From the NCBI GenBank assembly GCA_013813765.1, contig JACCRC010000068.1, positions 1 to 32,705 of the forward strand: a DNA stretch of 32,705 nucleotides, given 5' to 3'. A program made the translations under genes and the position numbers. The notes beneath the pieces are model-generated. The model was not told the DNA's origin and searched no databases. It saw only the letters and a program-made list of their open reading frames with translations. The DNA comes from Deltaproteobacteria bacterium. GTDB lineage: Bacteria; Myxococcota_A; Polyangia; Haliangiales; Haliangiaceae. Within the stretch, counting starts at the first letter, position 1. Each line of letters begins with the position of its first letter. This document shows positions 3,001-32,705 of this stretch, piece by piece.

Positions 3001-3096
3001 GATCTTCCCCGAGAGCATGTTGACCGCCTTGCAGCCCGAGCCCCCCAGGCCCAGGAAGATCGTCGGTGAAAGGCGGTCGGCGCGCAGGATACCCAT
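1..3096 (-). CDS. Tubulin/FtsZ-superfamily protein (Tubulin_2-like), C-terminus cut by window edge
   Basis: Open from an ATG at 3096 to the left edge, giving 1032 codons without a stop, so the C-terminus lies outside. The N-terminal 200 residues carry a tubulin-type nucleotide fold: GLGGSG at residues 16-21, a DTN motif at 51-53 where FtsZ has NTD, a GAGAGQIRVESR stretch near 110-121, and the signature loop GGTGSGG at 171-177. That loop is the GTP-phosphate binding T4 loop of FtsZ/tubulin. The rest is a long, charged, mainly helical region, so the protein is far larger than FtsZ (about 400 aa) and matches the large Tubulin_2 type. An AAGGAG Shine-Dalgarno sits 4 nt before the ATG and supports the start. 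It lies 23 nt after the vWA gene in the same operon, a pairing known for FtsZ-like families linked to membrane remodelling. GTP binding is likely; polymerisation is inference. Confidence 0.88.
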   Translation of the reverse strand, partial: MGILRADRLSPTIFLGLGGSGCKAVNMLSGKIRRHPNYPKFKDLIHIVGIDTNKADLHTMKNIPESNRFLVSAFDRRSYVQRKRGKQELAEDKMLTQWVHPDYQFRDAQGAGAGQIRVESRLGIYYNLEEDRAGILRSFRRILDAMSRPDNPFRDNEDRVINVMIYASVAGGTGSGGFLPMAYLLQDLVKDHGWGRPNIVGTLMLPSVFTADVEQALIADINANGYAALKELEFVTKLGYEGSREDVEFHYNPTNKERIHARNRPFALTYLIDKPNEISVERYINAVSDSAFLQLFSPIIGAQAGEYDNYDKHQKSLALGNFSVHYGSFGAAVLVLPRADIVHYASLRWIGRVLETYLVSGKDDAFRVPYDDPKFQRLARDEQDRIVDDKFNGYVEHVARLEEDQQEKGVYSAIVAQKSTDGATLRQTLTRRFAEMFNTLDEQIQIAPFDPLQVHEGNTSLSRPIENVRRDAAASRGKVMSFLDSQIADLKSGRFFSDFFRANTVGPLSQRYFLIKLKREGFLTPFEDAADGMFLQELKENAFDLDRDHVTREFADLEKRLRETSKKGFLGSVLSRENKEFDQVRRKTQDWFTQVETGQRDFQKASFWQRYHEELQRAVEVRLSQFRAVSAVSDEVARNVAQEAEKLRIDPAAARGDASDAGSFYLDSEVMRDDRAGQRLWNRLWSHKLDKSAYFDEDKIFDGITAAFAPAVGQDGRVRAKDAMEIVKDLREKLEAQAKDTYDRVFAEMGFDLRTAMEMEARYVATPDAKPSDEKAIESVSSRDVQNHLADKLRRVVDQCVLLAAIDKTKRDDPSVVPADVFYVGVAPRYSGDEATSLRQLIKGAASGIDFIDGWGEEDMIVFYRALLGVPIYFFKRVNEELYNSYKTVKAKPNRSYPLHIEAVWEDGIPNLDPKEMREAEEKRRAAESAQKTAGERDTRIWSFVLSTLASSVQKNGEGGYDWVMGTIKKKLGADRAASFSAFWNLDSSLRDDLVDAGSKLEKEKMATAPGRRSFRGEVETYLSNLKEAFAA

Positions 3097-3119
3097 GACG
3101 TCTCCTTGATCAGTGACAA

Positions 3120-5144: not shown

Positions 5145-7516
5145 TTGATCTGGAAGAAGATGTTCCCCGCCGCGTACACCGTGTTCTTCGACGCGTTGTG
5201 CCCGTCCTTCGTCGCCGCCTCGGGCACCGGCTCGAGCTTCTTCGACTGCGGGCTCACACGCTCGAGGCCGCCGCGGCTCCGGATGATCACCTCGCCCTTG
5301 CGCGCGTGAAGCTGGACGACGGCATTGTCGACCTTGTTCGTCGCCTGGCCGTTCTCGAGGAGGCCGACCGCTGCCGATCGGTACCAGCCCGGGCGTCCAC
5401 CCGGCAGCTCGCGCAACCGGCGACCGGCCGCGCGTGCGAGCTGCTCGCGCTTGCTGGCGAGCTGGACCTGATCGTCGATCGCGAACCGATGCGGTCGCAC
5501 GAAGCCATAGCCGAGGAAGATCACGAACAGGGCACCGCCGATCGCGGCGATGAGCCACCACCAGCAGGCGATCAGGCTGCGGCCTTCGACTTTCCACGTC
5601 ACGTCGATCGTCGCCTTCTGATCGGGGAAGTCCGGCGACACCGCCTGCACGGTCAGCACCGACGCGCCCGACTCGCCCGAGCACCGCGGCACGTCGGCGA
5701 GGCACACCGTCACGCTGCGCGAGTCGAGGATCTCGGTCTCCACACCGTCGCCGTGCAGCGCGAAGCCGACGCCGGTGCCCGCGTCGTAGACGACCGGGTA
5801 GCTCTCGCAGCCCTGCGCGCGCGTCGCGGTCAGCTTGAACCGCTGATAGAGCACGCCGCGCGACTTGTTGAAGTCGAGCTCGACGCACTTCGTGTTCGCC
5901 TTCGTCCCTGCCGGCACCGTGCCTAGATCGAGCGGGCCCTTGAGGTTCAGCTCGATCGGCTCGAGCACGGTGATCGACGCCTGGTCCTTCACCGACCAGC
6001 CGTTCGACTCGGCCGCGGCCTCGAGGCTCACTTCTCCGGAATCGCCCGGGACGACGGTGCCCTTCCAGATCGCGTCGAGGTCACCGAGCTTGTCGGTGGC
6101 GAGCGGGCTCGTCGCACCGCCGGCGCGCGCCGTCATCTTCATCGCCGTCGACTTGATGAACGCCTCGCCGTTCGCGCGCGCCTTCGGATCCGCGGGTAGC
6201 CGGAACTTCGCGGTCACCGGGCACGGCCGGTCCTTGTAGCACTGGCGATCCGGCGTGATCTGGATGCCCACGCCGAGCGACGTGACCTTCGCGTCGACGT
6301 TGGCCGACGGACACACATCCCCTGCTCCACCCTCGGCGATCAGCCGCACGTGAACTTCCTCGCTGTTGGTCTGCGGGCGCGGAATCGTGACCGTGCCCGC
6401 CGCGTTGCCCGTGGCATCGACCGTCGCTGCGAGCTGCTGCTCTTTCTCGGCGCCGATCTGCACGATGAAGAACACCTTCACGCCCGCCGGATTGATCGGC
6501 TTGCCGCCCGCATCGACGAAGTGACCGGCGAGCTTCGTCGGCGCATCCGCGACGAGGATCTCGCCCGACGTCGGCGCATCGAGGCGACCCTCGACGCGGC
6601 AGCCGGCGACCTGGATCGTCTGCTCGCCGGGGGTGATCGTCTTTGGCACCTCGCCGAACACCGCGAACGCCTTCGGCTCGAACCTGAGCGTCACCTGCCC
6701 GCCCTGCGGGATGTTCACCATCGCGAACACGACGCCGTTCTTGCGTGTGCCGTGGATGCGTTTCACTTCCTTGCCGTCGGGCCCGACGATCACGAAGTCG
6801 CCGCGCACGACCTTGCGTGGCTTGCCTCCCTGCGTCGTCTTTGCTCCGCCCTCGACGCGGATCGGCGTGTTCACCGCATACGGACCCGGCGCGATCTTCG
6901 CGACGATTCCGTCGTAGTCCGTCGGCTTCGGCGGCGGCGGCGGTGCGAGCACGACCGGCGCGGGCGGCGGCGGCGGAATCGGAGGCGGAGGTGGTGGAGG
7001 CGGCGGAGGCGGCGGAGGCGGCGGCGCGCTGATCCCGGTATCCGGATCCGGAGGCGGAGGCGGCAGCGGCGGCGGCGGAGGAGGCAGCGGCGGTGGTGGC
7101 GGCGGCAGCGGATTCGCCCCGAAGTACATGCCGCCCTTGTCGGGCGTCGCGCGCGTCGTCGAGGCGCAGCTGTTATGTCCGACGTAGCGGAAGCCCTGGC
7201 TCGGCGACTTGCTCTCGCAGGTCGAGTCCTCCTCGTCCCAGCACGAGTAACAGATACCGCCCTTCTCGACGAAGCCGTGCTGATGCCACGCCTTCTTGAC
7301 GCCGAGGTAGCGCGCGCACGAGTCGGTGATCGTGCGCGTGTTGTCGCCGTTGCTCTGACCGTAGGCCGGGCCTTCGTCAAAGCCCGACGCGCACCACGTC
7401 TTGTTGTCGGCGTTGTCGGCGAGCGCTTCGCCGGAGATGACGAGCAGCAGCGCGCACCCGAACGCGAAGAGGCGCGTGATCATCGAGGAGCCCGCTGTCC
7501 GCGCACGCCGCGTCAT
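5141..7516 (-). CDS. Proline-rich secreted/membrane protein with Cys-rich head and C-terminal module shared with the vWA protein
   Basis: 791 aa from the ATG at 7516. Order: signal peptide (1-33, ending ALA before DN), a Cys-rich head of about 85 residues with eight cysteines, a proline-rich linker (about 135-205) with several poly-Pro runs including one of 15, a long beta-rich region with Ig-like character (about 205-645), one TM (about 650-673) that begins CWWW, and a roughly 118-residue cytosolic tail. TM and tail align throughout with the next gene's (GRRLRELPGG, GWYR, GGLE). The chosen ATG overlaps an upstream TGA as TGATG and has GGAGG 9 nt before it. A shorter start at 7483 would also leave a signal peptide. 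No catalytic motif is visible. The Pro-rich linker suggests that the head is held away from the membrane. Function is not recognised. Confidence 0.82.
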   Translation of the reverse strand: MTRRARTAGSSMITRLFAFGCALLLVISGEALADNADNKTWCASGFDEGPAYGQSNGDNTRTITDSCARYLGVKKAWHQHGFVEKGGICYSCWDEEDSTCESKSPSQGFRYVGHNSCASTTRATPDKGGMYFGANPLPPPPPPLPPPPPPLPPPPPDPDTGISAPPPPPPPPPPPPPPPIPPPPPAPVVLAPPPPPKPTDYDGIVAKIAPGPYAVNTPIRVEGGAKTTQGGKPRKVVRGDFVIVGPDGKEVKRIHGTRKNGVVFAMVNIPQGGQVTLRFEPKAFAVFGEVPKTITPGEQTIQVAGCRVEGRLDAPTSGEILVADAPTKLAGHFVDAGGKPINPAGVKVFFIVQIGAEKEQQLAATVDATGNAAGTVTIPRPQTNSEEVHVRLIAEGGAGDVCPSANVDAKVTSLGVGIQITPDRQCYKDRPCPVTAKFRLPADPKARANGEAFIKSTAMKMTARAGGATSPLATDKLGDLDAIWKGTVVPGDSGEVSLEAAAESNGWSVKDQASITVLEPIELNLKGPLDLGTVPAGTKANTKCVELDFNKSRGVLYQRFKLTATRAQGCESYPVVYDAGTGVGFALHGDGVETEILDSRSVTVCLADVPRCSGESGASVLTVQAVSPDFPDQKATIDVTWKVEGRSLIACWWWLIAAIGGALFVIFLGYGFVRPHRFAIDDQVQLASKREQLARAAGRRLRELPGGRPGWYRSAAVGLLENGQATNKVDNAVVQLHARKGEVIIRSRGGLERVSPQSKKLEPVPEAATKDGHNASKNTVYAAGNIFFQIK

Positions 7517-7815
7517 CAGTTGCCGCCTCCGCTCGGAGGCGTCATGCCCGGCGGGGTGGTCGGCATCGTCGACGGCGCGGTCGCGCCGGGCGCCGCGCTC
7601 GGTGTGACCTTCGCCGGCTGCTTCGCCGCGGGTGGTGTGGTCGCGCCGGAACCCGTCGGTGTTGTGCCGGCGGATCCCGCACTCGCACCGGAGCCTGCAT
7701 TCGCGCCGGAGCCCGCGTTCGCGCCCTTGCCGGCGCCGAGCTTCGTTGCGAAGCCCGCATTCACCTTCGCGCCGAGTCCCGCACCCGAGCCCGAACCCGC
7801 ACCCGAACCCGAACC
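7516..7815 (-). other. Severed C-terminal tail of the PP2C gene (in-frame continuation after a TAG)
   Basis: This 300-bp stretch holds no convincing independent gene. It continues the PP2C reading frame without shift for 99 codons, past the TAG at 7816-7818, to a TGA at 7516-7518 that overlaps the next gene's ATG. Its translation carries on the same Gly/Ser/Ala repeat (GSGSGAGSGSGAG) and then becomes Ala/Thr/Pro-rich. The first possible initiator is a GTG at 7764 with no visible ribosome site. The TAG stands where the repeat predicts TCG (Ser), so a single C-to-A change explains the split. It could be a recently truncated tail, a sequencing error, or an occasional readthrough extension. Confidence 0.6.
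7526..7530 (-). promoter_or_regulatory. Ribosome binding site GGAGG for the proline-rich protein gene
   Basis: GGAGG on the minus strand ends 9 nt before the ATG at 7516, which itself overlaps a TGA as TGATG. This decides between the ATG at 7516 and the ATG at 7483, which has no comparable motif. Confidence 0.6.
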
Positions 7816-9117
7816 CTAACCCGATGCCGCACCCGAACCCGATGCCGCACCCGAGCCGGAGGCCGCACCCGAACCCGCGCCCGATCCCGACGACGAGCCA
7901 GCGCCCGATCCTGCCGACGAGCCAGCGCCCGAGCCTTTCTTTCCGCCGCCACCCCCACCTCCCGTCTTCGGCTGATCCCACACCGGCGCGGTCAACGTCC
8001 CGCCATCCGGCGCCGCGCCCGCGGTACCTCCCGCGTCCGGATCCGCGCCCGCCGCGTCGAAGACGCCGGGCTGCGTTCCACCCTCTCCCGCATCGCGCCC
8101 GGGATTGTTGGTCTGCTGCGAGCCACCACCGCGCGTGAGGAAGAATACGGCCGCCGCAATGCCGACGAGCGCGAGCCCGCCGATCACGAGGATCGCCGCC
8201 TTCTTCGATCGTGCATCGGGCTCGGTCGCGGTTGCCACTGCGGCCTCCTTCGCCCTCTCCTTCGCGACGATCGCGCGCGCCGCAGAGGCGCTCTTCGCGA
8301 CGTCGGTGGTCTTCATCGCGCTGGACGGACCGGGCTCGTCGAGATCGGTCTTGCGTGGGCCGCCCTTGCGAACGGCTCCCTCACCCCACCGCATGATCGT
8401 GACGGTGATGTTGTCGTGACCGCCGCGGCGGTTCGCGAGATCGACGAGCCGCTGCGCAGCCTCGGCCGGCGTGTCCTCGCTACCGAGCTCCGCGATCTCG
8501 TCGTCCTTGACGAGGTCGTAGAGGCCGTCGGAGCACAGCAGCAACAGATCTCCGTCGCGCAGCTCGCGGCCGGCCTCGATGTCGGGCTCCGGCTGCTCTT
8601 CGCCGCGCGCGAAGCCGAGCGCGCGCGTGACGACGTTCGCGTCCTCGTGCGTCTTCGCCTGCTCGGGCGTGAGGATGCCGCGATCGATCATCTTCTGCAC
8701 GCGGGTGTGGTCCGCGGTGCGCCACAGGACGTTCCCGCCGCGCAGGTGATACGCGCGGCTGTCGCCGACGTGTCCGATCCACGCCTCGCCGTTGCGCACG
8801 AACGCGGCGACGGCGGTGGTCCCCATGCCGTCGAGGCCGGCCTTCTCCGCGTGCGCGAGGATGCGCTGGTTCGCGACGAGAAAGCCGTTCTTCAGCCGCT
8901 CCGACGGATCGCTCGCCGGCGAGTTCTGGAAGATCTGCATGATCGCGTCGCAGGCGATCCGGCTCGCGACCTCGCCCGACTCGTGACCGCCCATGCCGTC
9001 GCACACGACGAGCAGCTCGCCGCCAGCGGCCTCGACCTCGCCGCACGCGTCCTCGTTCTGCTCGCGACCTCGACCAACGTCGGTGACCGCATGAAACGTG
9101 TACGCCGGAGCTGCCAT
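7816..9117 (-). CDS. PP2C-family Ser/Thr protein phosphatase with TM anchor and Gly/Ser-rich tail
   Basis: 433 aa. The PP2C (PPM) domain spans residues 5-245 and has its metal-site residues: REQNED (18-23), VCDGMGG (38-44, D40), GMGTT, GDSR with D119, SDGLYD with D197, and GGHDN with D235. These dephosphorylate phospho-Ser/Thr using two metal ions. A 60-residue linker leads to a TM at about 307-327, and an outer tail rich in Gly, Ala and Ser with repeats of GSGAAS. The catalytic domain is therefore cytosolic and membrane-tethered. The ATG is 3 nt after the stop of the vWA-FHA gene. It is the obvious counterpart of the two kinases encoded nearby. The tail ends at a TAG that interrupts the repeat; the ancestral protein was probably about 533 aa. 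Confidence 0.93.
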   Translation of the reverse strand: MAAPAYTFHAVTDVGRGREQNEDACGEVEAAGGELLVVCDGMGGHESGEVASRIACDAIMQIFQNSPASDPSERLKNGFLVANQRILAHAEKAGLDGMGTTAVAAFVRNGEAWIGHVGDSRAYHLRGGNVLWRTADHTRVQKMIDRGILTPEQAKTHEDANVVTRALGFARGEEQPEPDIEAGRELRDGDLLLLCSDGLYDLVKDDEIAELGSEDTPAEAAQRLVDLANRRGGHDNITVTIMRWGEGAVRKGGPRKTDLDEPGPSSAMKTTDVAKSASAARAIVAKERAKEAAVATATEPDARSKKAAILVIGGLALVGIAAAVFFLTRGGGSQQTNNPGRDAGEGGTQPGVFDAAGADPDAGGTAGAAPDGGTLTAPVWDQPKTGGGGGGGKKGSGAGSSAGSGAGSSSGSGAGSGAASGSGAASGSGAASG

Positions 9118-9120
9118 GGT

Positions 9121-10980
9121 CTAGCGGTTCCCCGGATCGAACTTGGTCTTCGGCTTCTGCTTCTTCACCGGAGTCTCCGCCTCTGCCGGTGCCGCAGCCT
9201 CGACCTTCGCAGGAGCGGGCTCATCATCGACGGCGCCCTCGCCGGGTCGCTCGACGACGAGGATCAGATTCTGCGACAGCTTGATCTGATCACCGACCAC
9301 CAGCTTCGCGCGCTCCTTCTCCTTGAGTCGCCGGCCGTTCACGAACGTCCCGTTCGACGATCCGAGATCGCTGACCCAGAGGTCTCCGGACGGGAACAGC
9401 TCGAACTGCGCGTGCCGTCCGCTGATCTGCTTGACGGTGAACCGCAGGTCCACGCCGTCGGCCGGGTCATCGGATCCGCCCGCGACCGTCTTGCGCTTGT
9501 GCAGGCGCCAGCGCTCGCCGGGCGTCGCCCAGCCACCCATTGCGACGAGGTGCGTCTCCGGAAGCGGATCGAGCTCGACCGCGGTCTGCGCCTTCTCGAC
9601 GAGCGGCGCCTCCGGAAGCGGCTCCGGCGCGAGCGGCGCAGGAATGATCTCCGGCTGTGGCTTCTTGCGCAGCAGCACGAACAGCGCCGCGATCAGGAGC
9701 AGCGCACCGGCACCGGCGAGCAGCCAGATCAGCATCGAGCTCTTCGCCTTCGGCGGCGTGCACGTGCCGTCCTTGCACATCGAGCCGGGACCGCACGACT
9801 CGTCGCCCGCGCACGTGCGCGCGACGCATGCGCCGCCCTTGCACTCCTGCCATGCGCCGCACGCCTCGCTGCACGGCTTGTCGCACTTGCCGCCGATGCA
9901 CACGGCGCCGCCGGGACACGCGCCATCGCTCGTGCAGGCGCGCGGCTGACACGTGCCGGCGATGCACTCCGCCCACGGATCGCAGGGCGTCTTGCACAGC
10001 GACGGACAGGGCGCATCGGAGCCCGGCGCCCACGCGGCAGCGGCGAGCTGCGTGCCCGCGCTCCACGCCTCGCGCTTTGCACCCGGCACGTACTCGACAC
10101 GCACGTCGACCGGCTGATTCGATCGTGCGCCGCACAGCTTCGCGTCGAGCACGAGCCAGTTCTTCACCTTCGCACGCGCGTCCCGCAGTCCGTTCGCGAT
10201 CGCTGTCGGGTCGTTCGAGGTGAGGTACGTGCCTGCGGTCTCGGTCACGATGCGATTCAAGTTCGTCGTCGTGGTGACCCAGAACTCGTGCTTGGTGCCC
10301 CTGGGCTTCTTGTCGTCGGTCGGCAGAACCACGCTGATCCGCACGCCCGCTTCCTTCGCCTGCGTGATGATCTTCGCCCACACGGTCTTGTCGACGTCGG
10401 CCTCGTCGCCGGCGTCGGTGAAGACCACGATCTCGCGCAGGCCGGGCTCGCCTTCCTTCGCGGCGAGCGCGATCCCCGCGGCGAGACCGATCGTCACGCT
10501 CGTCGCCTGGCCGGGCTTGCGCTTGCCCACGCTCTGCAGGTCCGCCATGAAGTCCGCCGGCCCGACGTGCACGGGGAACGCCTTGACGTCGAGCGAGAAC
10601 ACGACGAGCGCGAGCTCGTCGCTGCCGGCGTCCTTGCCGTACTCGAAGATCGCGGGCAGCGCGACCCTCGCGCCCTCGCCCGACTTGTACGACGCGCTCT
10701 CGTCGAGCAGGATCACCGTCGTCAGCGGCTTGCCGCGCCCACCGTTGCGCGCGATCGCGAGGTTCGGTGCAGCACCGCCGCCGAGCCACATCGTGAAGTC
10801 GGTGGGCTTGGGGTTCGCGCCGATCGTCTTGTCGTGCTTCGGGTCGGCGGAGAGCAGCACCTGGATCGACCCCGGCGAGGGGCTCGACACCGTCTCGACA
10901 TGGAGACCACCGTCCTGGCTCGGTTGCGCGGCCGCGGTTGCGGCACCGAGCACCAGCGCGAGCGCGACGGCGGCCTTCAC
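9121..10980 (-). CDS. Transmembrane vWA-FHA protein with Cys-rich stalk
   Basis: 619 aa from a GTG at 10980 that overlaps the upstream TGA as GTGA and has GGAAG before it. The frame runs upstream to an ATG at 11028, but only the GTG gives a clean signal peptide (1-18). Order: vWA domain about 86-270 with MIDAS D93/S95/S97 and TDAG at 188-191; a Cys-rich stalk at 325-407 with EGF-like C-x3-5-C spacing; TM at 414-436; FHA domain at about 490-578 with SGRHA (520-524) and SSNGTFVNG (541-549); a Pro/Ala-rich tail. Topology places the vWA outside and the FHA in the cytosol. FHA domains bind phosphothreonine, so this protein could couple an external ligand to kinase/PP2C signalling. The usual GR of FHA strand 3-4 is not obvious (AGG at 500-502), so phosphopeptide binding may be altered. 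Confidence 0.92.
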   Translation of the reverse strand: MKAAVALALVLGAATAAAQPSQDGGLHVETVSSPSPGSIQVLLSADPKHDKTIGANPKPTDFTMWLGGGAAPNLAIARNGGRGKPLTTVILLDESASYKSGEGARVALPAIFEYGKDAGSDELALVVFSLDVKAFPVHVGPADFMADLQSVGKRKPGQATSVTIGLAAGIALAAKEGEPGLREIVVFTDAGDEADVDKTVWAKIITQAKEAGVRISVVLPTDDKKPRGTKHEFWVTTTTNLNRIVTETAGTYLTSNDPTAIANGLRDARAKVKNWLVLDAKLCGARSNQPVDVRVEYVPGAKREAWSAGTQLAAAAWAPGSDAPCPSLCKTPCDPWAECIAGTCQPRACTSDGACPGGAVCIGGKCDKPCSEACGAWQECKGGACVARTCAGDESCGPGSMCKDGTCTPPKAKSSMLIWLLAGAGALLLIAALFVLLRKKPQPEIIPAPLAPEPLPEAPLVEKAQTAVELDPLPETHLVAMGGWATPGERWRLHKRKTVAGGSDDPADGVDLRFTVKQISGRHAQFELFPSGDLWVSDLGSSNGTFVNGRRLKEKERAKLVVGDQIKLSQNLILVVERPGEGAVDDEPAPAKVEAAAPAEAETPVKKQKPKTKFDPGNR

Positions 10981-11672
10981 GCCGGCTTCCACAGCGCCGA
11001 GACCTTCGCCTGATCGAGCAGCCGGCACATGAGGTTCGTGCGGCCGAGCCGGATCACATCGCCGTCCTTGAGGTCGGTCTTCTCCATGACGTCGGCCTCG
11101 TTGAGGAACGTGCCGTTCTGCGACTTCTCGTCGTCGACGATGGTGCGACCGTTGCGCCAGAGCAGCACCGCGTGCGTGCTCGACACCATATCGTCGCCCT
11201 CGATCACGATGTCGCAGTCCTCGTCGCGACCCATCGTGTTGCGGCCCTCTCGGATCACCCAGTAGTGGCCTTCGACCACGCGGTCGAACGTCACCAGGAA
11301 GCCAACGATCCGTCGGCCCGCGTTCTTGTCCTGCTGCTTCTTCGCCTTCGGATCCGGTGGAGCGAACGGATCGCTCGGGTCCTTGCCGCCGGCGGCGGGA
11401 CCGTCGAACATCGTCTTGTACTTCGGCTTCGCAGCGCCGCCCGCGAACGGATCGGCGGGCGGCGGCGGCGGCTTCGGCGGCGAGGCACTCCCGACACGCG
11501 GGGCGAACGGATCGAGCGGGTCGGCCGCCATCTCCGTCTTGTGCTTGGGCGCCGGGCCGCCCTCCATCTCGGTCTTCCGCTTACCCGCGGGTGCGTTCCC
11601 GAGCGGAGTGCCGCAGAAGTCGCAAAAATCGATGCCTTCGGCATTTGGCCGCTTGCAAGACGGACAGTTCAT
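10977..11672 (-). CDS. Zinc-ribbon FHA-domain protein with three KxKT motifs
   Basis: 231 aa, cytosolic (no signal or TM). An N-terminal zinc ribbon has C3-x2-C6 and C17-x2-C20. A disordered linker (25-118) is rich in Pro and Lys, with three DPFA repeats and three near-identical motifs K-x-K-T-[EM]-[MF] (T34, T46, T87). The C-terminal FHA domain (about 122-218) is complete: GRDEDCDI (148-155), SSTHA (164-168), SQNGTFLN (184-191). FHA domains read phosphothreonine. The arrangement recalls small FHA proteins with phosphorylatable N-terminal threonines, such as mycobacterial GarA, where the tail binds its own FHA; that parallel is inference. It is the first gene of its operon, starting 95 bp from the divergent kinase gene, and its TGA overlaps the next GTG. 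Confidence 0.92.
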   Translation of the reverse strand: MNCPSCKRPNAEGIDFCDFCGTPLGNAPAGKRKTEMEGGPAPKHKTEMAADPLDPFAPRVGSASPPKPPPPPADPFAGGAAKPKYKTMFDGPAAGGKDPSDPFAPPDPKAKKQQDKNAGRRIVGFLVTFDRVVEGHYWVIREGRNTMGRDEDCDIVIEGDDMVSSTHAVLLWRNGRTIVDDEKSQNGTFLNEADVMEKTDLKDGDVIRLGRTNLMCRLLDQAKVSALWKPA

Positions 11673-13918: not shown

Positions 13919-15701
13919 GGAGCCCGCGCCGACGAAGATCGGTGACTACGACATCGAAGCGCTGCTCGGCGAGGGAGGGATGGCGAAGGTCTATCGCGCG
14001 AAGCACGCGTTCCTCGAGACCGTGCACGCGATCAAGGTCCTCGATCCCAGCTACCGGGTGAACGCGGAGGCGCGCAAGCGCTTCCTCGACGAGGCGAAGA
14101 TCCAGGCGAAGCACCTCGATCACGACAACATCGTGAAGGTCACGAACATCGTCGCGACGGCGGAGCACGCGGCGCTCGTGATGGAGCTGATCGAAGGCAG
14201 TGGCCTCGAGGGACGCATCGGCGACCTCAGGACGAAGCCCGCCGAGATCAAGCACATCATCCTCGCCGTGCTCGATGCCGTCGGGCACGCGCACGGCGCC
14301 GGCATCATCCACCGCGATCTCAAGCCGGCGAACGTACTTCTACATCAGGAGGACGGTGTCATCGTCCCGAAGGTCACCGACTTCGGCATCGCGAAGGTCA
14401 CCGCCACCGACAACAATGCCGTGAAGAAGTCCACGCACGGCGGCGCTCGCATGGGCACGCTCGCCTACTCGAGCCCCGAGCAGATCCGGCGCGCGAAGGA
14501 TGTCACCGCGCGCTCCGACGTCTACTCGCTCGGCGCGATGCTCTACGAGATGGCGACCGGCGAGATGGCGTTCGGCGGCGACAGCGACTACGACGTGATG
14601 GAGAACATCGTCAACGGCCGGTTCACGCCGCCGGAGCAGCGCTACCCGCAGATCGATCCGACGCACGCGGCGGTGATCCGCAAGGCGATGGCGAAGGATC
14701 CGGCGGAGCGCTACGCGAGCTGCGCCGAGATGGCGGCAGCGCTGCGCAGCGCCAGCACCCCGGTCGTGGTGGTGGCGGCACCGACGCGCGTCAAGCTGGA
14801 TCCATCGGTCGAGCAAAAGATGGCGGCGTGGAACGCGCCGAAGTCAGGCGGCAGCAAGGCCCCGCTCGTGATCGGTCTCGGTGTCGCCGCACTCGCGCTC
14901 GGCGGTATCGCCGTGTACCTCGGCACGCGCGGTGGTGGCGAGCCCGTGAAGCCTGCGCCGGTGGTCGCGGGCTCCGGCTCCGACTCGACTGCACCGGATC
15001 CGTGGAAAGGCAGCGGCGCCGCCGTCTGGGACCTCGCGCGCACCGAGTTCCCTGCGGGAATGGAGAGCGCGCCCGACGCCGCGCTGACGACTGCGAGCGG
15101 ACTGCGCTACCTCGTACTGCGCGAGTCCGGTCCCGGGAAGCATCCGACGACCGGGGACGTCGTCACGGTGGAGTTCAATACCTGGAGACTCTCCGACAAG
15201 GGGCTGGTTCGGACGACCCACGGCCAGCCACGGTTCGAGCAGGCGATCGACACACAGGAGGGCTCGATGAGCGAGATCCTCCGGATGATGACCCCCGGCG
15301 GCCGGATGCGCGTGTGGACGCCCGCGGGTCCACAGCACCCCGCGGTACTCGTTGACATCGAGCTCGTGTCGTTCAGGCCCGCCGCTCCGCTTCCGTGCGC
15401 CGGCACGTTCAAGTCCGACGAAGATCTGACGATCACGCTAGAGGGAACGACGACGGGCGCGTGTGGCACCTACGCGTTCGTCGACACGAGCGGGGTGCGA
15501 GGCCCGATGCGCTGCGCGGGCGCTCTCACCTGCGAGGGCCACAAGGCCGAGTTCACGTGCACGTACACGAAGATGGCCTCGATGAAGCTCGCCGGCACGA
15601 TGGACTGGACGTGCGCGGACGACGTGCTGGCCGTCGACATCAAGATGGGAAGCGGCACGCGCACGTGGCGGCTCAGTCGGGACAGCCGTCCCCGTCCTTG
15701 A
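13911..15701 (+). CDS. Receptor Ser/Thr kinase fused to an FKBP-like PPIase domain
   Basis: 596 aa from a GTG at 13911 inside the end of the previous kinase gene, with GAGGAG just upstream. The kinase domain (12-280) is complete (Lys42, HRD 134-136, DFG 157-159, SPE 188-190) and closely resembles its neighbour, showing a tandem duplication. TM at about 318-338. Outside the membrane lies an FKBP-type domain (about 395-488): GLRYLVLRESGPG (398-408), GDVVTVEF, MMTPGGRMRVWTP (459-471), LVDIELVSF. The FKBP consensus Y of VHYTGW is F422 here and several pocket residues differ, so isomerase activity is uncertain. The last 100 residues form a beta-rich domain with six cysteines, likely three disulfides. 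Its 3' end overlaps the convergent lipoprotein gene by 29 bp. Both kinases joining to PPIase folds of different families suggests a shared sensing task. Confidence 0.9.
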   Translation: MSEEPAPTKIGDYDIEALLGEGGMAKVYRAKHAFLETVHAIKVLDPSYRVNAEARKRFLDEAKIQAKHLDHDNIVKVTNIVATAEHAALVMELIEGSGLEGRIGDLRTKPAEIKHIILAVLDAVGHAHGAGIIHRDLKPANVLLHQEDGVIVPKVTDFGIAKVTATDNNAVKKSTHGGARMGTLAYSSPEQIRRAKDVTARSDVYSLGAMLYEMATGEMAFGGDSDYDVMENIVNGRFTPPEQRYPQIDPTHAAVIRKAMAKDPAERYASCAEMAAALRSASTPVVVVAAPTRVKLDPSVEQKMAAWNAPKSGGSKAPLVIGLGVAALALGGIAVYLGTRGGGEPVKPAPVVAGSGSDSTAPDPWKGSGAAVWDLARTEFPAGMESAPDAALTTASGLRYLVLRESGPGKHPTTGDVVTVEFNTWRLSDKGLVRTTHGQPRFEQAIDTQEGSMSEILRMMTPGGRMRVWTPAGPQHPAVLVDIELVSFRPAAPLPCAGTFKSDEDLTITLEGTTTGACGTYAFVDTSGVRGPMRCAGALTCEGHKAEFTCTYTKMASMKLAGTMDWTCADDVLAVDIKMGSGTRTWRLSRDSRPRP

Positions 15702-16371
15702 GCCCGTTCTTCGTCTCGGGCTCGTCAGGACACTTGTCGCTACCGTCGGGGAAGCCATCCCTGTCCCGATCCACCGGCTGCTTCGCTTTCGCGGGGCCAT
15801 AGAGGCAGTTCGTCGTGTTCGCCTCGTTCGGACACGGGTCGTCGAAGTCCGGCCGGCCGTCGCGATCGCTGTCTTTCGGCGTTGCATCCGGGCAGCCGTC
15901 GTCGTCCATGAAGCCGTTCCTCACCTCCGGCTGTGCCGGGCACTTGTCGGTCGCATCGCCGACCCCGTCGCCATCATTGTCGGGGTCCGGGCAGCCGTCG
16001 TCGTCCTGAAAGCGGTCCTTGTCCTCCGCTTCGTTCGGGCACTTGTCCGCGGCGTCCCGGATGCCATCACCGTCGTTGTCGAGCTCGGGGCAGCCGTCGT
16101 CGTCCTGAAAGCCGTCCTTGTCCTCCGGCTCCGTCGGGCACTTGTCGACGGCGTCGGCTGTGCCATCGTCGTCGTTGTCGGCATCGGGACAGCCGTCGTC
16201 GTCCTGAAACGCGTCCTTGTCCTCGGGCTCATTCGCGCAGCTGTCGGCGGCGTCAGCGATCCCATCACCGTCGACATCGCCATCGGCAGCCGGTGGCGAG
16301 ACGGGCGGGGCATCCAGGGGCTTGCGAGCGGCACAGGCCACGAGCACGAGCAGAAGTATCAGTCGGGACAT
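15673..16371 (-). CDS. Thrombospondin type 3 repeat lipoprotein (second of tandem pair)
   Basis: 232 aa. A lipobox LVAC ends at C13, so it is a lipoprotein. The mature part is almost wholly Ca-binding TSP3 repeats of about 36 residues, each with DxDxDG, DKCP and DGCPD. Such repeats usually form rigid linkers before OmpA-like peptidoglycan-binding domains in outer-membrane proteins, but no OmpA domain follows here. It ends in the same KNGLxDGDGCPD as the preceding gene, indicating gene duplication. Its ATG at 16371 lies inside the upstream gene, overlapping it by 13 nt. Its 3' end overlaps the convergent kinase gene. Role inferred: calcium-stiffened periplasmic or surface spacer. Confidence 0.88.
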   Translation of the reverse strand: MSRLILLLVLVACAARKPLDAPPVSPPAADGDVDGDGIADAADSCANEPEDKDAFQDDDGCPDADNDDDGTADAVDKCPTEPEDKDGFQDDDGCPELDNDGDGIRDAADKCPNEAEDKDRFQDDDGCPDPDNDGDGVGDATDKCPAQPEVRNGFMDDDGCPDATPKDSDRDGRPDFDDPCPNEANTTNCLYGPAKAKQPVDRDRDGFPDGSDKCPDEPETKNGLKDGDGCPD

Positions 16372-17030
16372 CCGTCACCATCCCTCAGGCCGTTCTTCGT
16401 CTCTTTCTCGTCGGGGCACTTGTCGGTCGCGTCGGGGAACCCATCGCCATCGCGATCGACGGGCTTCTTCGGCGGTGGTGGCGGAGGCGGCGGCGGTGGC
16501 GGTGGCGGTGCCGAGATGATCACCCGGCCACGATCAGGGCAACCGTCCTCATCCTCGATACCGTTGTAGAGCTCCGCGTCGTTTGGACACTTGTCGACGT
16601 GATCGAGGATCTGGTCCCTGTCGTTGTCGGGATCGGGGCAGCCGTCGGAGTCGTCGAAGCCGTCCTTGTCCTCCGGATCGTTCGGGCACAGATCCTTGGC
16701 GTCGAGGACGCTGTCGCGATCATTGTCGGGATCCGGGCAGCCGTCGGCGTCCTCGAACCCGTCCTTGTCCTCGGGATCGTCCGGGCACTTGTCGGCGTTG
16801 TCGGGAATGCCCTCGCCGTCGCGATCGCTATTCCCCGTCTCCGGGCAACCGTCGTCGTCCTCGTGCCCGTTCTTGCTCTCGGCGTCGTTCGGACAGCGAT
16901 CGTCGACGTCGAGCACGCCATCGCGATCGTTGTCGGGCTCTGGACAGCCGTCGGAGTCCTCGAACCCGTCGAAGTCCTCCGGGTCACTCGTGCAGCGGTC
17001 GTCAGACTTGAGGCCGTCGCCGTCGTAATC
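15690..17030 (-). repeat. Array of coding TSP3 repeats across two genes
   Basis: Imperfect tandem DNA repeats of about 108 bp run through both lipoprotein genes. The recurring plus-strand core is gggcagccgtcgtcgtcctg followed by a cacttgtcgg-type segment. They encode the 36-residue TSP3 unit. The strong similarity between units makes slippage or gene conversion likely, and assembly of this stretch could collapse copies. Confidence 0.75.
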
Positions 17031-17096
17031 GCCGCCGCCGCCTCCGAAACCGGGGCAGCCCGCCAGTGCAAGCACGAACAGGACAGCGCGGATCAT
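16359..17096 (-). CDS. Thrombospondin type 3 repeat lipoprotein (first of tandem pair)
   Basis: 245 aa. Signal peptide with lipobox LAGC (C14), then five or six TSP3 repeats (DNDRDG, DKCPNDPEDKDGF, DGCPDPD), a run of 13 prolines near residue 200 after RVIIS, and a final TSP3 unit ending DGDGCPD. No OmpA C-domain is present. It starts a few bases after the 3' end of the group II intron, so its transcript is joined to the upstream genes only through the intron. It sits next to a copy of itself. TSP3-bearing OmpA-type proteins are known neighbours of the FtsZ-like/vWA systems. The Pro-run here and in the gene at 5141-7516 suggests similar extended linkers. Confidence 0.88.
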   Translation of the reverse strand: MIRAVLFVLALAGCPGFGGGGGDYDGDGLKSDDRCTSDPEDFDGFEDSDGCPEPDNDRDGVLDVDDRCPNDAESKNGHEDDDGCPETGNSDRDGEGIPDNADKCPDDPEDKDGFEDADGCPDPDNDRDSVLDAKDLCPNDPEDKDGFDDSDGCPDPDNDRDQILDHVDKCPNDAELYNGIEDEDGCPDRGRVIISAPPPPPPPPPPPPPKKPVDRDGDGFPDATDKCPDEKETKNGLRDGDGCPD

Positions 17097-17104
17097 TGGT
17101 AGAT

Positions 17105-18121
17105 CTAACCTTCTTCCGTCTCGCGACGGACGTGAGTAAGACCCCCGTTCAAACCGTACGTGCGGATTTCCCGCATACGGCTTACCGGTGATCGTTCAGA
17201 GCGCGGCAGTTGTGCTTGCCCAGGGTAGCGGATCGTTCCGTGCAGTCTGTGAAGCCCGAGTTGGTAGAAGGCTTTCGTCGTCCACCGGCGCATCTCGCCA
17301 GGTCGCAGGTTCCGGCCTTTGCGACGACGCATCAGCTTGCGTAGGCGCATCCAGACGTAGCTGTCGACCTGCTTGAATTTCGCCGATGCGTTTCCGGTCG
17401 CGAAGTAGCCACCCCAGCCACGGATCATCGGATTGATCTTCGCGATCGTCTCGCGCAGATCACGGTGACATGCGTTGTTCGGTGCTAGCTCCTTCACGCG
17501 CTCCTTCACCCGCTTCACGCTTGTCGTCGACGGCCAGCGCTGGAGAAAGTAGACGCGCTTGCGCTCGTTCTCCCAGATCCGACCTGACATGCGCTTCTGC
17601 AAGTGACAGCCGAGAAAGTCGAAGCCTTCGTTACCGTCGGTCAGCTCCACCTTCCTCGTCTTGTCCGGGTGTAGTTCAAGTCGCAGCCGCTTGAAGATCA
17701 GCTTCACGTACTGCGCACACTGTTTGGTCCACAGCTCGTCGAGAAACGACAGGTAGATGTTCGAGAGCAGCGGCGAGATCACACCACCCTGCGGTGTCCC
17801 GCTGAGCAGCTTGGTCTCGCGCCCGTCTTCCATCACACCGGCGTCGAGCCACATCCAGATCAGGCGCAGCACCCGACGGTCGCTCACGCGCCGCTTCACC
17901 CGCTCCATCAGGATCTCGCGATCGAGACTCCCGAAGAAGTCGCGGATGTCGGCATCGAACACGAAGTTGCCCTTGTGCCCGGAGCCGCGCAGACGGATTG
18001 CTTCCAGCGCCTGCGTCGCCGAGCGACCGGGCCGAAAGCCGTACGAGCAGTCCTTGAAGTCGACCTCGAAGATCGGTTCCAGGATCAGTTTCGCTGCCGT
18101 CTGCACCACGCGATCACGCAC
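17105..18121 (-). pseudogene. ltrA: Degenerate group II intron reverse transcriptase/maturase
   Basis: 338 codons remain open. Visible RT blocks: [50 protein letters not shown], then [10 protein letters not shown] and GFDFLGC, and the maturase X domain ([11 protein letters not shown]). The catalytic YADD block, expected between [11 protein letters not shown] and [11 protein letters not shown], is absent: a few dozen codons were lost in frame. The N-terminus is also missing; the open frame continues back only to a TGA at 18173 and reads TRIPTV just before the GTG, the usual lead-in to this block. At the 3' end the frame runs through domain V, so the original stop seems lost too. It cannot polymerise DNA. 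A residual RNA-binding maturase role is possible but unlikely. Confidence 0.88.
17151..17183 (-). ncRNA. Group II intron domain V
   Basis: On the minus strand this reads as the classic domain V hairpin: AAGCCGTATGCGG, a GAAA-type loop, then CCGCACGTACGGTTT. The AGC catalytic triad is present at the base of the stem. It is preserved although the maturase gene is broken, so the ribozyme core could still function if domain I is adequate. Confidence 0.85.
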
Positions 18122-18447
18122 CGTCGGAATCCTCGTCGATCGTTTCGGATCGTCTCGTCGAGGATGTTGCCTTCACCGTGAAATGAGCGGCTCGGCTTCC
18201 CGGTTGTAAATGTGTCGAGGCTGCAAGCTTCACTTCATGTTGCGGCCCGCGTCCTTGCCTCCCGTTGTTCACGGGCTCCTGACGTAGCGCTTCGGCCTCC
18301 AGAATCTCTTCTGGCTCCGGCGACCTGCTACCCGGCGCTCCGACGCTTACCGGGGCGGGACTTGCACCCGCGGGAGAACCGCAGCGTGACAGCTCCGAGT
18401 CTTGCAACTCGTCGTCGTCGTCACGGCGCACCATCCGCGCATCTTAC
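18122..18447 (-). other. 5' intron RNA and short 5' exon between ExbD-like gene and RT remnant
   Basis: No protein gene is supported here. From 18431 downward it is the 5' part of group II domain I, followed by degraded leader that joins abruptly to the RT remnant near 18130-18140. The 16 bp from 18432 to 18447 are exon sequence after the ExbD-like stop codon. Confidence 0.55.
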
Positions 18448-28532: not shown

Positions 28533-30245
28533 CTATGGCGCCCCCGACAGTGCCAACAAACGACTAGCGTCGTACCACACCAGCGGTGGCGTCTCCCGAC
28601 GTTGTTGCTCCGAGATCCTCGTGGCCATTCCCGACGCTGACAGGTACGCGGAGATACCCGTCCGGATTGCCTTTGCTTCGGGCACGTCCAGCCGGTTTGC
28701 GAGATCTCCGATCCAATACAGCCAGTGCACGTTTGCCTCGATCAGAGGGTCGGACGCATCGCACACCTGCGCAGTCGCATCCAGGGACGAGGTAATTCGA
28801 GAAAACGCGTCGGCCAGGTACCCGGGATCGTTGTACTGGCTCGTCGCTCCGTAGTGCGCGACCCCGTCGAGATAGTCGACGTACGCGACGACGTACTTCC
28901 CGAGCTGCCCACCGGAGAACTCCATCGCCTCCACGCTCGCCCGCGTCTCCTTGCAGATCCGCGCCGCGTGCGCCCACTCGCTGCGCGCCGCGTGACAGCG
29001 CGCGAGGATCACGCCGCGCAGCACGTTGTTCCACGGCTCCTTGCAGGTCGGATGCACGCGGTGCATCGCGCTCTCGGTCTTTCCGAGGTAGCGCGCCTCG
29101 ATGTGCGCGAAGTGCAGCCGTCCCAAGTCGCCGAGCTTGGCGCCCAGTGCATCCACCGCGGCCACCGCCTTCTCGATCATCGGCTTGCACTCCTCGGGCG
29201 GTCGCGAGTGCGCGAGCCTGCGCGTCACCGCCGCGAGCTCTCGCACGCCCTCCTCGTCCGCGCCCACCGCATCGATCGCCGCCTGCAGCGCTCCACCGTA
29301 ATCCTGGTCGCGTCCGCGCAAGCGGCTCAGCACGTCCCACGGCACGTGCTGCTTCGGTGCCGTCGCCGCGAACCTCTCGAGCACGCCGCGCGCGACATCG
29401 ATCTTCCCCTCGTACTCCCAGCGCACCGCCGTCCGATACGGACCCAGCTGCTCGTGGATCTGCACCAGCTGCTGCGCCCAGTCGCTCGGCGGACTCGGCT
29501 CGAGCAGCGACACCGCGAGCGCTGAGAGCGCCGCTGCCTCGTCGTTGAAGCTCGAGGGCAGCGCATCGATCACGCCCCGATTGATCCCCGCCGTCCCGGT
29601 CAACCAGCCGCGCAGCGCGCGCTTGAAGCGATGGCTCCGCGCGACGTGCGGCGGAAACACATCGCCGAGCAGCGCGCTCGCGAGCATCACGCCGATCGCG
29701 TAGGCGCCCGAGCTCGAAGCACTCGTGCTCTTGCCCAGCAGCGCCTTCGCCGGCGTCCACATCCACGCCTCCTGCGCCGCCCTCGCCCACTCTCCGACGC
29801 CCACATCGACGAGCGGCACCACCATCAACCGCCACGCGCCTTCATCGCGATCCGGGCAGTAGCGGAGGCTCATCGGCGAGATGAGCGCGCTGACCTCCAC
29901 CCGCTCTAGGATGCGGATCGCCGCCTCGAGGTAGCGCGCGAGCTCGACCAGCTCCGGCAGGTGGACACTCGGCTTCGCGGCGAACCGCGGCAGCGCGGCG
30001 GCGAAGCTCATGTGGTGCTCCTTCTCGAGCGCATAGTCGAGGATCAGCTGCGTGCCCATCTCGTCGACATGGCTCGGCACCCAGAACCACTCGGCCGCCA
30101 CGCCGTCGAGCCGCTCCACGATCGACTGTACGAGCCCACGCGTGCGCGCGTTCAGCGGCATCACCACGCGAACGCGTCCACCTTCCAGCTCCGTCAGCTC
30201 CCCCAGTGGCAACGGGACATGCGTCGTGATGTTCGTCCCCGGCAC
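28533..30245 (-). CDS. Pseudokinase-like protein with C-terminal helical repeats
   Basis: 570 aa from a GTG at 30245, the only possible initiator after an in-frame TAG three codons upstream; a GGAG lies 12 nt before it. No TM. Residues about 90-250 follow the pattern of a protein kinase C-lobe: VSALISPMSLRYCP (118-131) where HGxxxPxN would be, WRLMVVPLVDVG (138-149) in the DFG-strand position, AWMWTPAKALLG (160-171) like an APE segment, and GAYAIGVMLASALLGDVFP (180-198), closely resembling the SDVYSLGVxLYExLTGxxPF helix. The HRD Asp and DFG are missing, so it would be catalytically dead. The rest (260-570) is helical, perhaps TPR-like. This kinase relation is my inference and needs a structure comparison. 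Confidence 0.75.
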   Translation of the reverse strand: MPGTNITTHVPLPLGELTELEGGRVRVVMPLNARTRGLVQSIVERLDGVAAEWFWVPSHVDEMGTQLILDYALEKEHHMSFAAALPRFAAKPSVHLPELVELARYLEAAIRILERVEVSALISPMSLRYCPDRDEGAWRLMVVPLVDVGVGEWARAAQEAWMWTPAKALLGKSTSASSSGAYAIGVMLASALLGDVFPPHVARSHRFKRALRGWLTGTAGINRGVIDALPSSFNDEAAALSALAVSLLEPSPPSDWAQQLVQIHEQLGPYRTAVRWEYEGKIDVARGVLERFAATAPKQHVPWDVLSRLRGRDQDYGGALQAAIDAVGADEEGVRELAAVTRRLAHSRPPEECKPMIEKAVAAVDALGAKLGDLGRLHFAHIEARYLGKTESAMHRVHPTCKEPWNNVLRGVILARCHAARSEWAHAARICKETRASVEAMEFSGGQLGKYVVAYVDYLDGVAHYGATSQYNDPGYLADAFSRITSSLDATAQVCDASDPLIEANVHWLYWIGDLANRLDVPEAKAIRTGISAYLSASGMATRISEQQRRETPPLVWYDASRLLALSGAP

Positions 30246-30254
30246 CGCGGCAGT

Positions 30255-31481
30255 CTACTCCACGAGCTCCATCGCGTTCGACCGACCGGGCGCGACAGGT
30301 AGCGTTGTTACAGCGCCGGTCGCTGGATCGATCGAGCGCAACGTCTCGTCGGTGGCTGGGGCATAGAGCAGGCCGTTGAAGAAGCGCAGCTCCTCGAAGT
30401 GGATGCCTGCGGTGAGGGCGACGGGGACGGGCGTACCGAACGCGCCGGTCGTCAGGTTGACGGTGTTCAGATTGATGATGCCGGCGGTGCGCGAGGTGAA
30501 CCAGACCGTGGTGCCGTCGGTGGCGATGCCGAACGAGCCGCAGCACGGGATCATCGGGGTGCCGAGCGGGGTGAAGAGATTCGTGAGCGGATCGAACGTG
30601 CCGATGCGGCGCTGGATGCGCTCGATCGCGATGTGGCGGGTGCCGCTGCGAACGATCGCGGGGAACAGCGACTGGATCTGGACCGGATCGATCATCTCCT
30701 GCCTGCGGAAGTCGATGCGACCGAGTCGGCGCGAGCGATCGATGCCCCACAGGTCGCCGCGGTCGTCGGCGAACACGGTCGTGAACGCGACGTTCGCCGT
30801 GGGCAGACGTGGGATCGCGAACGACGTGGCCGCGACGGGATCATAGAACGTCGCGAAGCTCTCGCCGAAGCGCGAGAACAGCAGGAGGCCGGGTCGCGGA
30901 CCGGGGGAGTAGCGGAAGGCGCGCTGCTTTCGCGCGGTGCCGCGAAGGTTGACGAGCTCCACGGTGGGACGCACGAACGCAGGACCGCTCGGCACCGTGA
31001 ACATCAGCGAGGTGTCGGAGGTGACGACCGCGTCGTCGACGAGCACGCCGTCGACGACGATCGAGGGCTCCCCTGCCCCTTCGTCGAGGAAGCCGGTGCC
31101 GGTGAGCGTGATCACGCTGTCGCCGGAGCTCCAGATCACGTCGGTGGGCGACAGCGCCTCGATCGTCGGTGGAGCGCTGTAGTGGAACAGATCCGACTCG
31201 ATCGCGGAGCCGTCCTCGGTCAGCACGATCAGCTCGGCGTCTCCCGGCTCGTCGCCGGGAGGCAGCACCACGTCGAGGGAGGTGGTGCTGGTCGCGTGCG
31301 CGAGCGGCGCCTCGCGGCCGCCGACGAGGACACGCGTGGACGGACCGAAGCCAGAGCCCGCCAGCTCGATCACGGTGCCACCGACGAGCGGGCCATGGTC
31401 GGGCATCGCTCTCACGAGCGTCGGGCCGCTGGCAGGCGGTTCGGCGCATGCCGCGAGCATGACGAGGAGTGCGCGCTTCAT
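30255..31481 (-). CDS. IPT/TIG-domain lipoprotein with C-terminal beta-propeller-like region
   Basis: 408 aa. A lipobox LAAC at C12 makes it a lipoprotein. Two IPT/TIG Ig-like domains follow (about 20-104 and 105-195), with the typical AMPDHGPLVGGTVIELAGSGF and ALSPTDVIWSSGDSVITLTG openings. The C-terminal 210 residues contain repeating beta units (FADDRGDLWGID, GIATDGTTVWFTS, FNGLLYAPATDETLRSID) that look like a beta-propeller. The ATG overlaps the TGA of the upstream gene as ATGA. The stop is 9 nt from the next start. It is a surface or outer-membrane-anchored binding protein. The ligand is unknown. Confidence 0.87.
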   Translation of the reverse strand: MKRALLVMLAACAEPPASGPTLVRAMPDHGPLVGGTVIELAGSGFGPSTRVLVGGREAPLAHATSTTSLDVVLPPGDEPGDAELIVLTEDGSAIESDLFHYSAPPTIEALSPTDVIWSSGDSVITLTGTGFLDEGAGEPSIVVDGVLVDDAVVTSDTSLMFTVPSGPAFVRPTVELVNLRGTARKQRAFRYSPGPRPGLLLFSRFGESFATFYDPVAATSFAIPRLPTANVAFTTVFADDRGDLWGIDRSRRLGRIDFRRQEMIDPVQIQSLFPAIVRSGTRHIAIERIQRRIGTFDPLTNLFTPLGTPMIPCCGSFGIATDGTTVWFTSRTAGIINLNTVNLTTGAFGTPVPVALTAGIHFEELRFFNGLLYAPATDETLRSIDPATGAVTTLPVAPGRSNAMELVE

Positions 31482-32705
31482 CGCTCGCCTGCCGGGTGAC
31501 CGCCGACGAACGTTCCGGTTGGAAGCTCGGGACCGAGCGCGTGCGGCGAGGTGCCGGCGGGCGCGACGTACGGCGCACACGTGCCGGAGCGCAGGTCGAA
31601 CAGCGGCGCGGTCGTGCGCGCGCCGATCGCGTGCAGCCCGGGACCGATCACGTCGGGGATGGACAGCGCGGCGAACGCAGCCGAACCGCAAGAACGATCG
31701 GGCACCTCGGCGATCGGGACCTCGACGGCGCAGCCCTGCGTGAAGAGGCGGGTCGCGGGGAGCGTGGTCGCGGGGATGCAGCGCGTGACGGTCTCGTACT
31801 CGACCGGCGTGCACTCGCCTCGCGTCGCGGTATCGAACATGCGCACGTCGTGGAAGCGGAGCGCGCCCGACGTGAGCGCGACGCGGTGGAGCCGGTGCGC
31901 GCGATCGCGAACGACCTCGCGCGTCAGCGGTGCGGGCTCGACGGCGACGCCGAGCTCGAAGCCGCGACGCGTCGGGAACGCGGGCATGCACGCGGCACCG
32001 CTGCGCCGGAACAGCGAGCCTGTGTGCGAAGCTCCGAGGCGATGAACGGTCGCGCAGCCGAGCGCGGGCCGCAGCTGGACGAGCGCGGGAAGCGGATCGT
32101 CGACCCGCACGGCGACGCCGGGGGTCTCGCACCGCGAGTCGAGGAACACGTCGGCGATCGCCGTCACGACGGGAACGCACGCGTCGCCATCGGGTACGCA
32201 CGGAACGTCGAGGTCGCGATCGCGGAGGCCAACCGGCACGTGCAGCCCATCGACACTCTCGCGCACCCGCAGCGCGATCCGCTCGCCCTCTTCGAGCTCG
32301 CGCTCCGTCAGCTCGACGGTGTCACCGACACCGCTGATCTCGAACCACGGGAAGTCCGCCGGCGCAGATCGTGGACCGGTGCACTCGCCATCGACGAGCT
32401 CGTAGACAAGCGCCGGCGGATCGATCGACGTCGTCGACGCGTGGTAGATGACCGACGGCAGCCGCACTCCACTCGTGACGTCGTACGCGAGGAAGTGCCG
32501 CGGTTTTCCGATCACCTCGGCGTAGCCGACGGCGGTCTCGCACGTCGCCTCGGTGTAGTACGCCGTGTCGGCCTCCGGCACGCAGCGCACGGTGCCATCG
32601 GCCCAGTCGACCGGCGTGCAGCGCGCGTGCAGCGCGGTGTCGTAGTACGCCTCGGGCGCGACCTGCCGAGAGCCGTCGCCGTAGAACAGCCACTCGGCCT
32701 TCAGG
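31478..32705 (-). CDS. Cys-rich modular surface protein, N-terminus cut by window edge
   Basis: Open from the right edge to the TGA at 31478; 409 residues visible. The frame has no stop up to 32704, so the ATG at 32590 is not a convincing start. It contains about three related modules of some 110-130 residues, each with pairs such as RCTPVDWADGTVRCVP and a later LFxxRSGxCxP end. Paired cysteines suggest disulfide-bonded secreted modules. I recognise this as a pattern common in Myxococcota secreted proteins but cannot name a family. Overlaps the following lipoprotein by ATGA, so it is co-translated with it. Confidence 0.75.
   Translation of the reverse strand, partial: LKAEWLFYGDGSRQVAPEAYYDTALHARCTPVDWADGTVRCVPEADTAYYTEATCETAVGYAEVIGKPRHFLAYDVTSGVRLPSVIYHASTTSIDPPALVYELVDGECTGPRSAPADFPWFEISGVGDTVELTERELEEGERIALRVRESVDGLHVPVGLRDRDLDVPCVPDGDACVPVVTAIADVFLDSRCETPGVAVRVDDPLPALVQLRPALGCATVHRLGASHTGSLFRRSGAACMPAFPTRRGFELGVAVEPAPLTREVVRDRAHRLHRVALTSGALRFHDVRMFDTATRGECTPVEYETVTRCIPATTLPATRLFTQGCAVEVPIAEVPDRSCGSAAFAALSIPDVIGPGLHAIGARTTAPLFDLRSGTCAPYVAPAGTSPHALGPELPTGTFVGGHPAGER

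Follow-up and report, generated by a model that had tools for sequence, protein, structure and literature searches.

The gene at positions 28533–30245 on the minus strand of the window (by which we mean the entire 32,705-nucleotide stretch of DNA analysed here) encodes a 570-residue protein in which a putative eroded kinase domain is joined to a TPR solenoid. On balance, this protein is probably a cytoplasmic, non-catalytic pseudokinase-TPR scaffold that would serve an Hsp70/membrane-TPR complex encoded by its own gene set. Such a protein is plausible and not unprecedented, and it is narrowly distributed. A preliminary description of this DNA had proposed a dead kinase fused to helical repeats, and homology of the C-lobe, loss of the catalytic residues and the TPR solenoid all agree with that proposal.

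The gene is an open frame with a GTG start. This assigned start fits, since similarity to the related genome G003 in the upstream DNA reaches no further than 5 bases ahead of the start codon. Orthologues were found in G003 (86–88% identity), in G007 (69%) and in G031, a genome from another family (about 33%). The G003 orthologue lies in two pieces, of 86% and 88% identity, with a contig break between them. Against G003, the kinase-like part has a dN/dS of 0.23 and the repeat part one of 0.17, similar to the 0.21 of the neighbouring Hsp70 gene. Judged by these sequence comparisons, the frame is a real gene under purifying selection. The protein matches no Pfam or NCBIfam family at E≤1 and has no convincing match in a PDB sequence comparison; plasmid tblastn and viral-contig searches gave no useful match.

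The C-terminal half, about residues 256–566 (28548–29480, minus strand), can be called a TPR solenoid with very little doubt. It is predicted to be all-helical, with pLDDT mostly about 75–93, and builds a superhelix of tandem helix-turn-helix units. Its top Foldseek matches are TPR superhelices, among them that of O-GlcNAc transferase (OGT; E 5e-4) and a consensus TPR. A profile of residues 265–365 matches TPR proteins elsewhere in the phylum.

Probable kinase ancestry of the N-terminal half

The C-lobe, comprising the APE segment and helices F–I, appears almost certainly kinase-derived, because one alignment register recurs across kinases and the profile-profile score lies far above shuffled controls. 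A profile of residues 1–266 of the four orthologues (A6) was run as a six-frame search of the protein's own genome at E≤10. Its sole non-self match there (G000:C424:2725-3057, E 0.003) falls within a live Hanks kinase with HRD, DFG and APE. In total, 27 non-self loci were fetched, one from the same genome and 26 from a search of 290 genomes of the class, and 20 of the 27 are kinase domains. An offset of 24 between the A6 register and that of an independent kinase HMM occurs in every one of these 20 (in 19 more often than any other offset, and in the remaining one as the runner-up).

This register places the helix F equivalent at residues 176–193 (29667–29720, minus strand). The segment GAYAIGVMLASALLGDVFP, residues 180–198 of the protein, lies in this region. 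Here the SDVYSLG-type motif of helix F reads SGAYAIG, and its Asp corresponds to G180. The APE equivalent, W163-T164-P165-A166-K167 (29745–29759, minus strand), aligns with Y-I-A-P-E of the live kinase on C424, so that in the window protein K167 takes the place of the APE Glu. The G031 orthologue carries a literal W-T-A-P-E ahead of its helix-F segment. An APE end, helix F and the helices of the C-lobe are thus all present, and in a register homologous to that of kinases, as descent from the Hanks-type kinase superfamily entails.

Profile-profile comparison with hhalign was carried out against nine unselected kinases from the same genome and the window. Residues 150–262 reached 78% probability, an E-value of 1.8e-5 and a score of 38.4, against 17.5 for the best of 40 column shuffles. 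The longer segment of residues 1–265 scored 31 (shuffle maximum 21.5), and none of four other alignments from the gene set exceeded 19.5 with these kinases. When the kinases were chosen by the A6 profile itself, the match rose to 96.7% and E 3.7e-10; this enriched set was used only for placing the catalytic-loop register, because the comparison is partly circular. Run on the nine unselected kinases, the A6 profile was only marginally above shuffled profiles.

For the N-lobe and the catalytic loop, assignment draws on the predicted order of elements and on the Foldseek ranking. AlphaFold predicts the order b-b-aC-b-b-aD-aE-b-b-aEF-aF-aG-aH-aI in residues 12–250, which as modelled is the secondary-structure order of a kinase with a shortened N-lobe. 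The predicted N-terminal elements are strands at 16–20 and 24–30, a helix at 33–46, strands at 56–63 and 66–72, and helices at 81–89 and 96–113. These are followed by strands at 127–131 and 138–142, a short helix at 166–169, the long helix at 176–193 and helices at 205–214, 217–228 and 231–248. With three orthologues as input, the repeat half was confidently modelled and pLDDT fell below 50 over residues 108–202. The domain alone, modelled from four orthologues, had a pLDDT of 44, too uncertain for superposition. Live kinases were left out of the AlphaFold alignment, because including them would have forced the answer.

In Foldseek searches with the domain model, the top 50 PDB matches were mostly protein kinases, the pseudokinases IRAK3 and BIR2 among them, and otherwise gyrase/topoisomerase A subunits. 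Since E-values were 0.016 or worse and the TM about 0.2, the predicted packing of the domain is not trustworthy, and the ranking was kept as supporting enrichment only. Against viral structures there were a few kinases, at E>0.1 and without clear enrichment. Taken with the C-lobe homology, the element order and the ranking make it likely that the entire N-terminal half, about residues 12–250 (29496–30212, minus strand), is an eroded kinase fold with an N-lobe remnant and a C-lobe.

Several claims of the preliminary description can be refined at this point. It had read the segment at residues 180–198 and its flanks as kinase helix F/G; the resemblance exceeds chance by hhalign and by register, but the three-dimensional geometry does not follow from a low-confidence AlphaFold model. 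It had taken residues 80–250 as the kinase-like region, but the domain appears to begin near residue 12. Of the two checks that it proposed, profile-profile comparison with Hanks kinases placed residues 150–262 above shuffles, and structure prediction recovered the kinase element order and a Foldseek ranking of kinases but no superposable model.

Catalytic positions and alternative readings of the domain

If the domain has a kinase fold, it is very probably catalytically dead, to judge from its aligned residues. The first 74 residues of the window protein contain no Lys, and the hairpin at the place of beta-3 reads RVRVVMP; the beta-3 Lys and the HRD Asp are missing in all four orthologues. 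By the hhalign register, the HRD equivalent is S119-A120-L121 (29883–29891, minus strand), with Leu for the catalytic Asp and no Asp in the orthologue rows. The enriched kinase set aligns I122-S123-P124-M125-S126 with the L-K-P-A-N of the kinase loop. Both the catalytic Asp and Asn would therefore be lost, as the loop reads S119-A120-L121-I122-S123-P124-M125-S126 against HRDLKPAN. The beta-3 Lys, HRD Asp and DFG Asp of an active Hanks-type kinase are not retained as a set. Loss of at least one canonical catalytic residue across orthologues, the mark of a pseudokinase, is found by sequence, and the complete fold is partly supported.

The DFG region (29799–29822, minus strand) depends on the register chosen. 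Beta-8 at residues 138–142 puts DFG on V142-V143-P144, whereas hhalign with the enriched kinase set prefers D147-V148-G149. The motif is in any case not conserved, since residues 147–149 read DVG in two orthologues (window and G003), DAT in G007 and KLS in G031. In the two former proteins, D-V-G could be a surviving metal-binding motif. The earlier statement that the HRD and DFG aspartates are gone is therefore correct for HRD, where the Asp is absent from four of four orthologues, but register-dependent for DFG.

Three other readings of the domain were weighed. Mere chance resemblance of an Ala-rich helical protein to kinases would account for the low-confidence model and for the weak single-sequence scores: with an own-genome kinase HMM the protein did not rise above shuffles, aligning at helix F only and with a negative score. 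The single register in 20 of 20 kinase matches makes this reading unlikely, and with the hhalign margin over shuffles and the APE motif of the G031 orthologue we consider it highly improbable. A less drastic reading keeps only a C-lobe-like helical remnant (about residues 160–250) adjoining an unrelated alpha/beta N-terminal domain. Indeed, the sequence-level signal is restricted to the part C-terminal of about residue 120, hhalign of residues 1–155 alone against the nine unselected kinases gave no signal above shuffles, and the domain model does not superpose on kinases. However, the elements from 16 to 142 follow the kinase order, the Foldseek alignments cover the full domain (about 240–300 columns), and the partly circular alignment with the enriched profile reaches through the catalytic loop to residue 122. 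A bare remnant is thus improbable, though less so than chance. Between the two in likelihood stands a degenerate kinase that still binds nucleotide or is catalytic via non-canonical residues; D147 might serve for metal, for instance, and R24/R26 for the phosphates of ATP. Neither arginine varies among the four orthologues, and the enriched hhalign set aligns D-V-G of the window and G003 proteins with DFG. Nonetheless, G031 has Lys in place of D147, G007 has lost the DxG pattern, the HRD Asp and the catalytic-loop Asn are absent from all four proteins, and there is no glycine-rich loop, which leaves such an activity quite doubtful.

Chaperone genes and live kinases in the neighbourhood

The preliminary description set the gene in a chaperone operon, and Hsp70 genes are indeed linked to it in three genomes. 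In the window it heads a tightly packed Hsp70 gene set on the minus strand, followed by P0002, P0006, P0003, P0004 and P0005, with small gaps except for 186 nt before P0006. P0002 (26500–28530), a membrane-anchored TPR-type protein, begins after a 2-nt gap and is syntenic in all linked orthologues. P0006 (25701–26312) is a small zinc-ribbon-like protein, and P0003 (23230–25692) is a secreted or membrane protein without a family assignment, with a weak bpX5 match (E 0.04). P0004 (20802–23228) has an Hsp70 ATPase domain (PF00012, E 1.7e-71, main stretch residues 7–351) and a non-standard C-terminal half. P0005 (18971–20794) is a CxxC-containing membrane protein. In G031 the gene order is the same, and a DnaK gene lies directly upstream with a 4-nt overlap with the start of the orthologue; in G003 the DnaK gene is 7 kb upstream. 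The gene set is rare: P0005 orthologues occur in five of 318 genomes of the class, P0002 in the same five, and the pseudokinase gene in four of these.

Several further features of this region were observed. About 450 residues of P0004 lie beyond the main Pfam match and may form a substrate-binding half of non-standard type. The N-terminus of P0005, PFRLLRLPTNATAKQAVWQ, resembles by eye the start of a J-domain without HPD, as does that of the protein before DnaK in G003/G031 (L012:4671-5936, plus strand), YARLGVSPLASTDDIRSFI; neither has Pfam support. The ExbD/TolR-like P0007 (18448–18945, minus strand) ends the chaperone gene set and has a counterpart in G003 at 87%. Upstream of the pseudokinase gene, a TIG-domain secreted protein and a DUF7481 protein (30255–32590, minus strand) share 74% DNA identity with G003, where an ATPase_2/DUF234 gene stands between them and the pseudokinase gene.

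The two live kinases that had been reported in an adjacent operon are P0011 and P0012 (11723–15701, plus strand), Ser/Thr kinases with VAIK, HRD and DFG intact. The C-terminal part of P0011 holds a cyclophilin-type PPIase and a DsbA-like thioredoxin domain (Pfam); P0012 appears by eye to have an FKBP-like domain, a part for which there is no Pfam match. Beside the kinases, positions 1–11028 (minus strand) encode a tubulin_2-like protein, VWA proteins, a VWA-FHA membrane protein and a PP2C phosphatase. A group II intron lies at 17086–18373 (minus strand), with Rfam matches for D1-D4 at 18235–18373 and for domain V at 17086–17185 on either side of an RVT_1/GIIM reverse transcriptase ORF. It looks to have been inserted between the two gene sets, since G003 has no matching DNA for most of 15701–18447.

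With the same pseudokinase-TPR anatomy, the partners could instead be P0011/P0012 and the PP2C/FHA-VWA cluster, the protein acting as an allosteric activator, inhibitor or substrate adaptor. The earlier suggestion of an allosteric partner of the live kinases belongs here. The kinases are intact and close by, and G003 has both gene sets on one contig, C373. A full-length FHA-VWA protein occurs in four of 35 genomes of the order, and three of these four also carry the pseudokinase gene set, so that a functional tie to the kinase cluster is possible. Against this, common descent and incomplete assemblies confound the co-occurrence; G031 has the FHA-VWA marker on other contigs and the chaperone genes still adjacent, and G018 has the FHA-VWA gene with no match for the pseudokinase/chaperone gene set. 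Judging from these two genomes, the pseudokinase gene has kept its chaperone neighbours better than its kinase neighbours, and we regard kinase partners as an unlikely alternative to the Hsp70-associated scaffold.

Known systems and a proposed role

Hanks-type Ser/Thr kinases (PF00069), including P0011/P0012 and the kinase on C424, share with the protein the APE segment, helix F, the helix H–I register and the predicted order of elements. The protein differs from them in having no glycine-rich loop, beta-3 Lys, HRD Asp, conserved DFG or Pfam match. Bacterial pseudokinases are experimentally largely unexplored, and seven families have been reviewed (ActPs1-3, GLW, CP1, DYD and DLHK), of which ActPs1-3, GLW and CP1 are Ser/Thr pseudokinases whose three catalytic motifs have all diverged (PMC12599244). 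Compared by description only, these latter families resemble the protein in having lost all canonical catalytic motifs and in an expected non-catalytic role. Neither TPR nor Myxococcota nor linkage to chaperone genes comes up for the bacterial families in the text of that review (PMC12599244). In EssB/YukC of type VII secretion, a pseudokinase domain serves structurally within a complex of several proteins (PMC12599244, PMC9600267), the kind of role proposed here. EssB/YukC has another gene neighbourhood, the protein has its TPR solenoid attached, and it does not match the EssB/YukC Pfam family at E≤1.

TPR co-chaperones have in common with the protein a TPR superhelix and genetic linkage to Hsp70. 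Their EEVD-clamp mode, as in eukaryotes, needs a cognate Hsp70 ending in EEVD and is not indicated here, since neither linked Hsp70 has that terminus (P0004 ends IRSDVK and P0019 ends MKNRS).

For the Hsp70-associated scaffold we propose the following mechanism. Residues of about 12–250 would stem from a Hanks-type Ser/Thr kinase in which the glycine-rich loop, the beta-3 Lys, the HRD Asp and a conserved DFG were lost. With these motifs lost, no phosphate transfer is expected. The TPR part would hold one partner, and the kinase-derived C-lobe would offer a second binding surface. We infer that the scaffold may in this way recruit clients or regulators to the Hsp70/membrane-TPR complex of its own gene set. 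That the protein works with this gene set at all we give an even chance. The narrower idea that it is a non-enzymatic component dedicated to a membrane-anchored Hsp70 machine of bacteria, found only in a few myxobacteria, and serves this machine as co-chaperone or client adaptor is speculative and rather unlikely. The gene offers a concrete, testable case of a kinase fold that may have been reused as a scaffold, invisible to Pfam and NCBIfam and beside defined Hsp70 and membrane genes.

On this reading the protein belongs to a broader group of eroded kinases within the phylum, as several degenerate Myxococcota kinases are among the best cross-matches of the profile (in G125, G010, G037, G244 and G209). 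In these, HRD has become HGN, HGA, HGG, HGS or PGE; unlike the window protein, they are parts of longer proteins and still reach about 20–70 bits with the kinase HMM. The protein's own genome has 154 kinase-domain matches, and our results suggest that standard searches under-count the degenerate kinases of kinase-rich myxobacteria. The degenerate domains with these five replacements of HRD are at loci L076, L078, L082, L084 and L090. In G125, one chain combines a kinase, with DFG and APE intact, and a pseudokinase.
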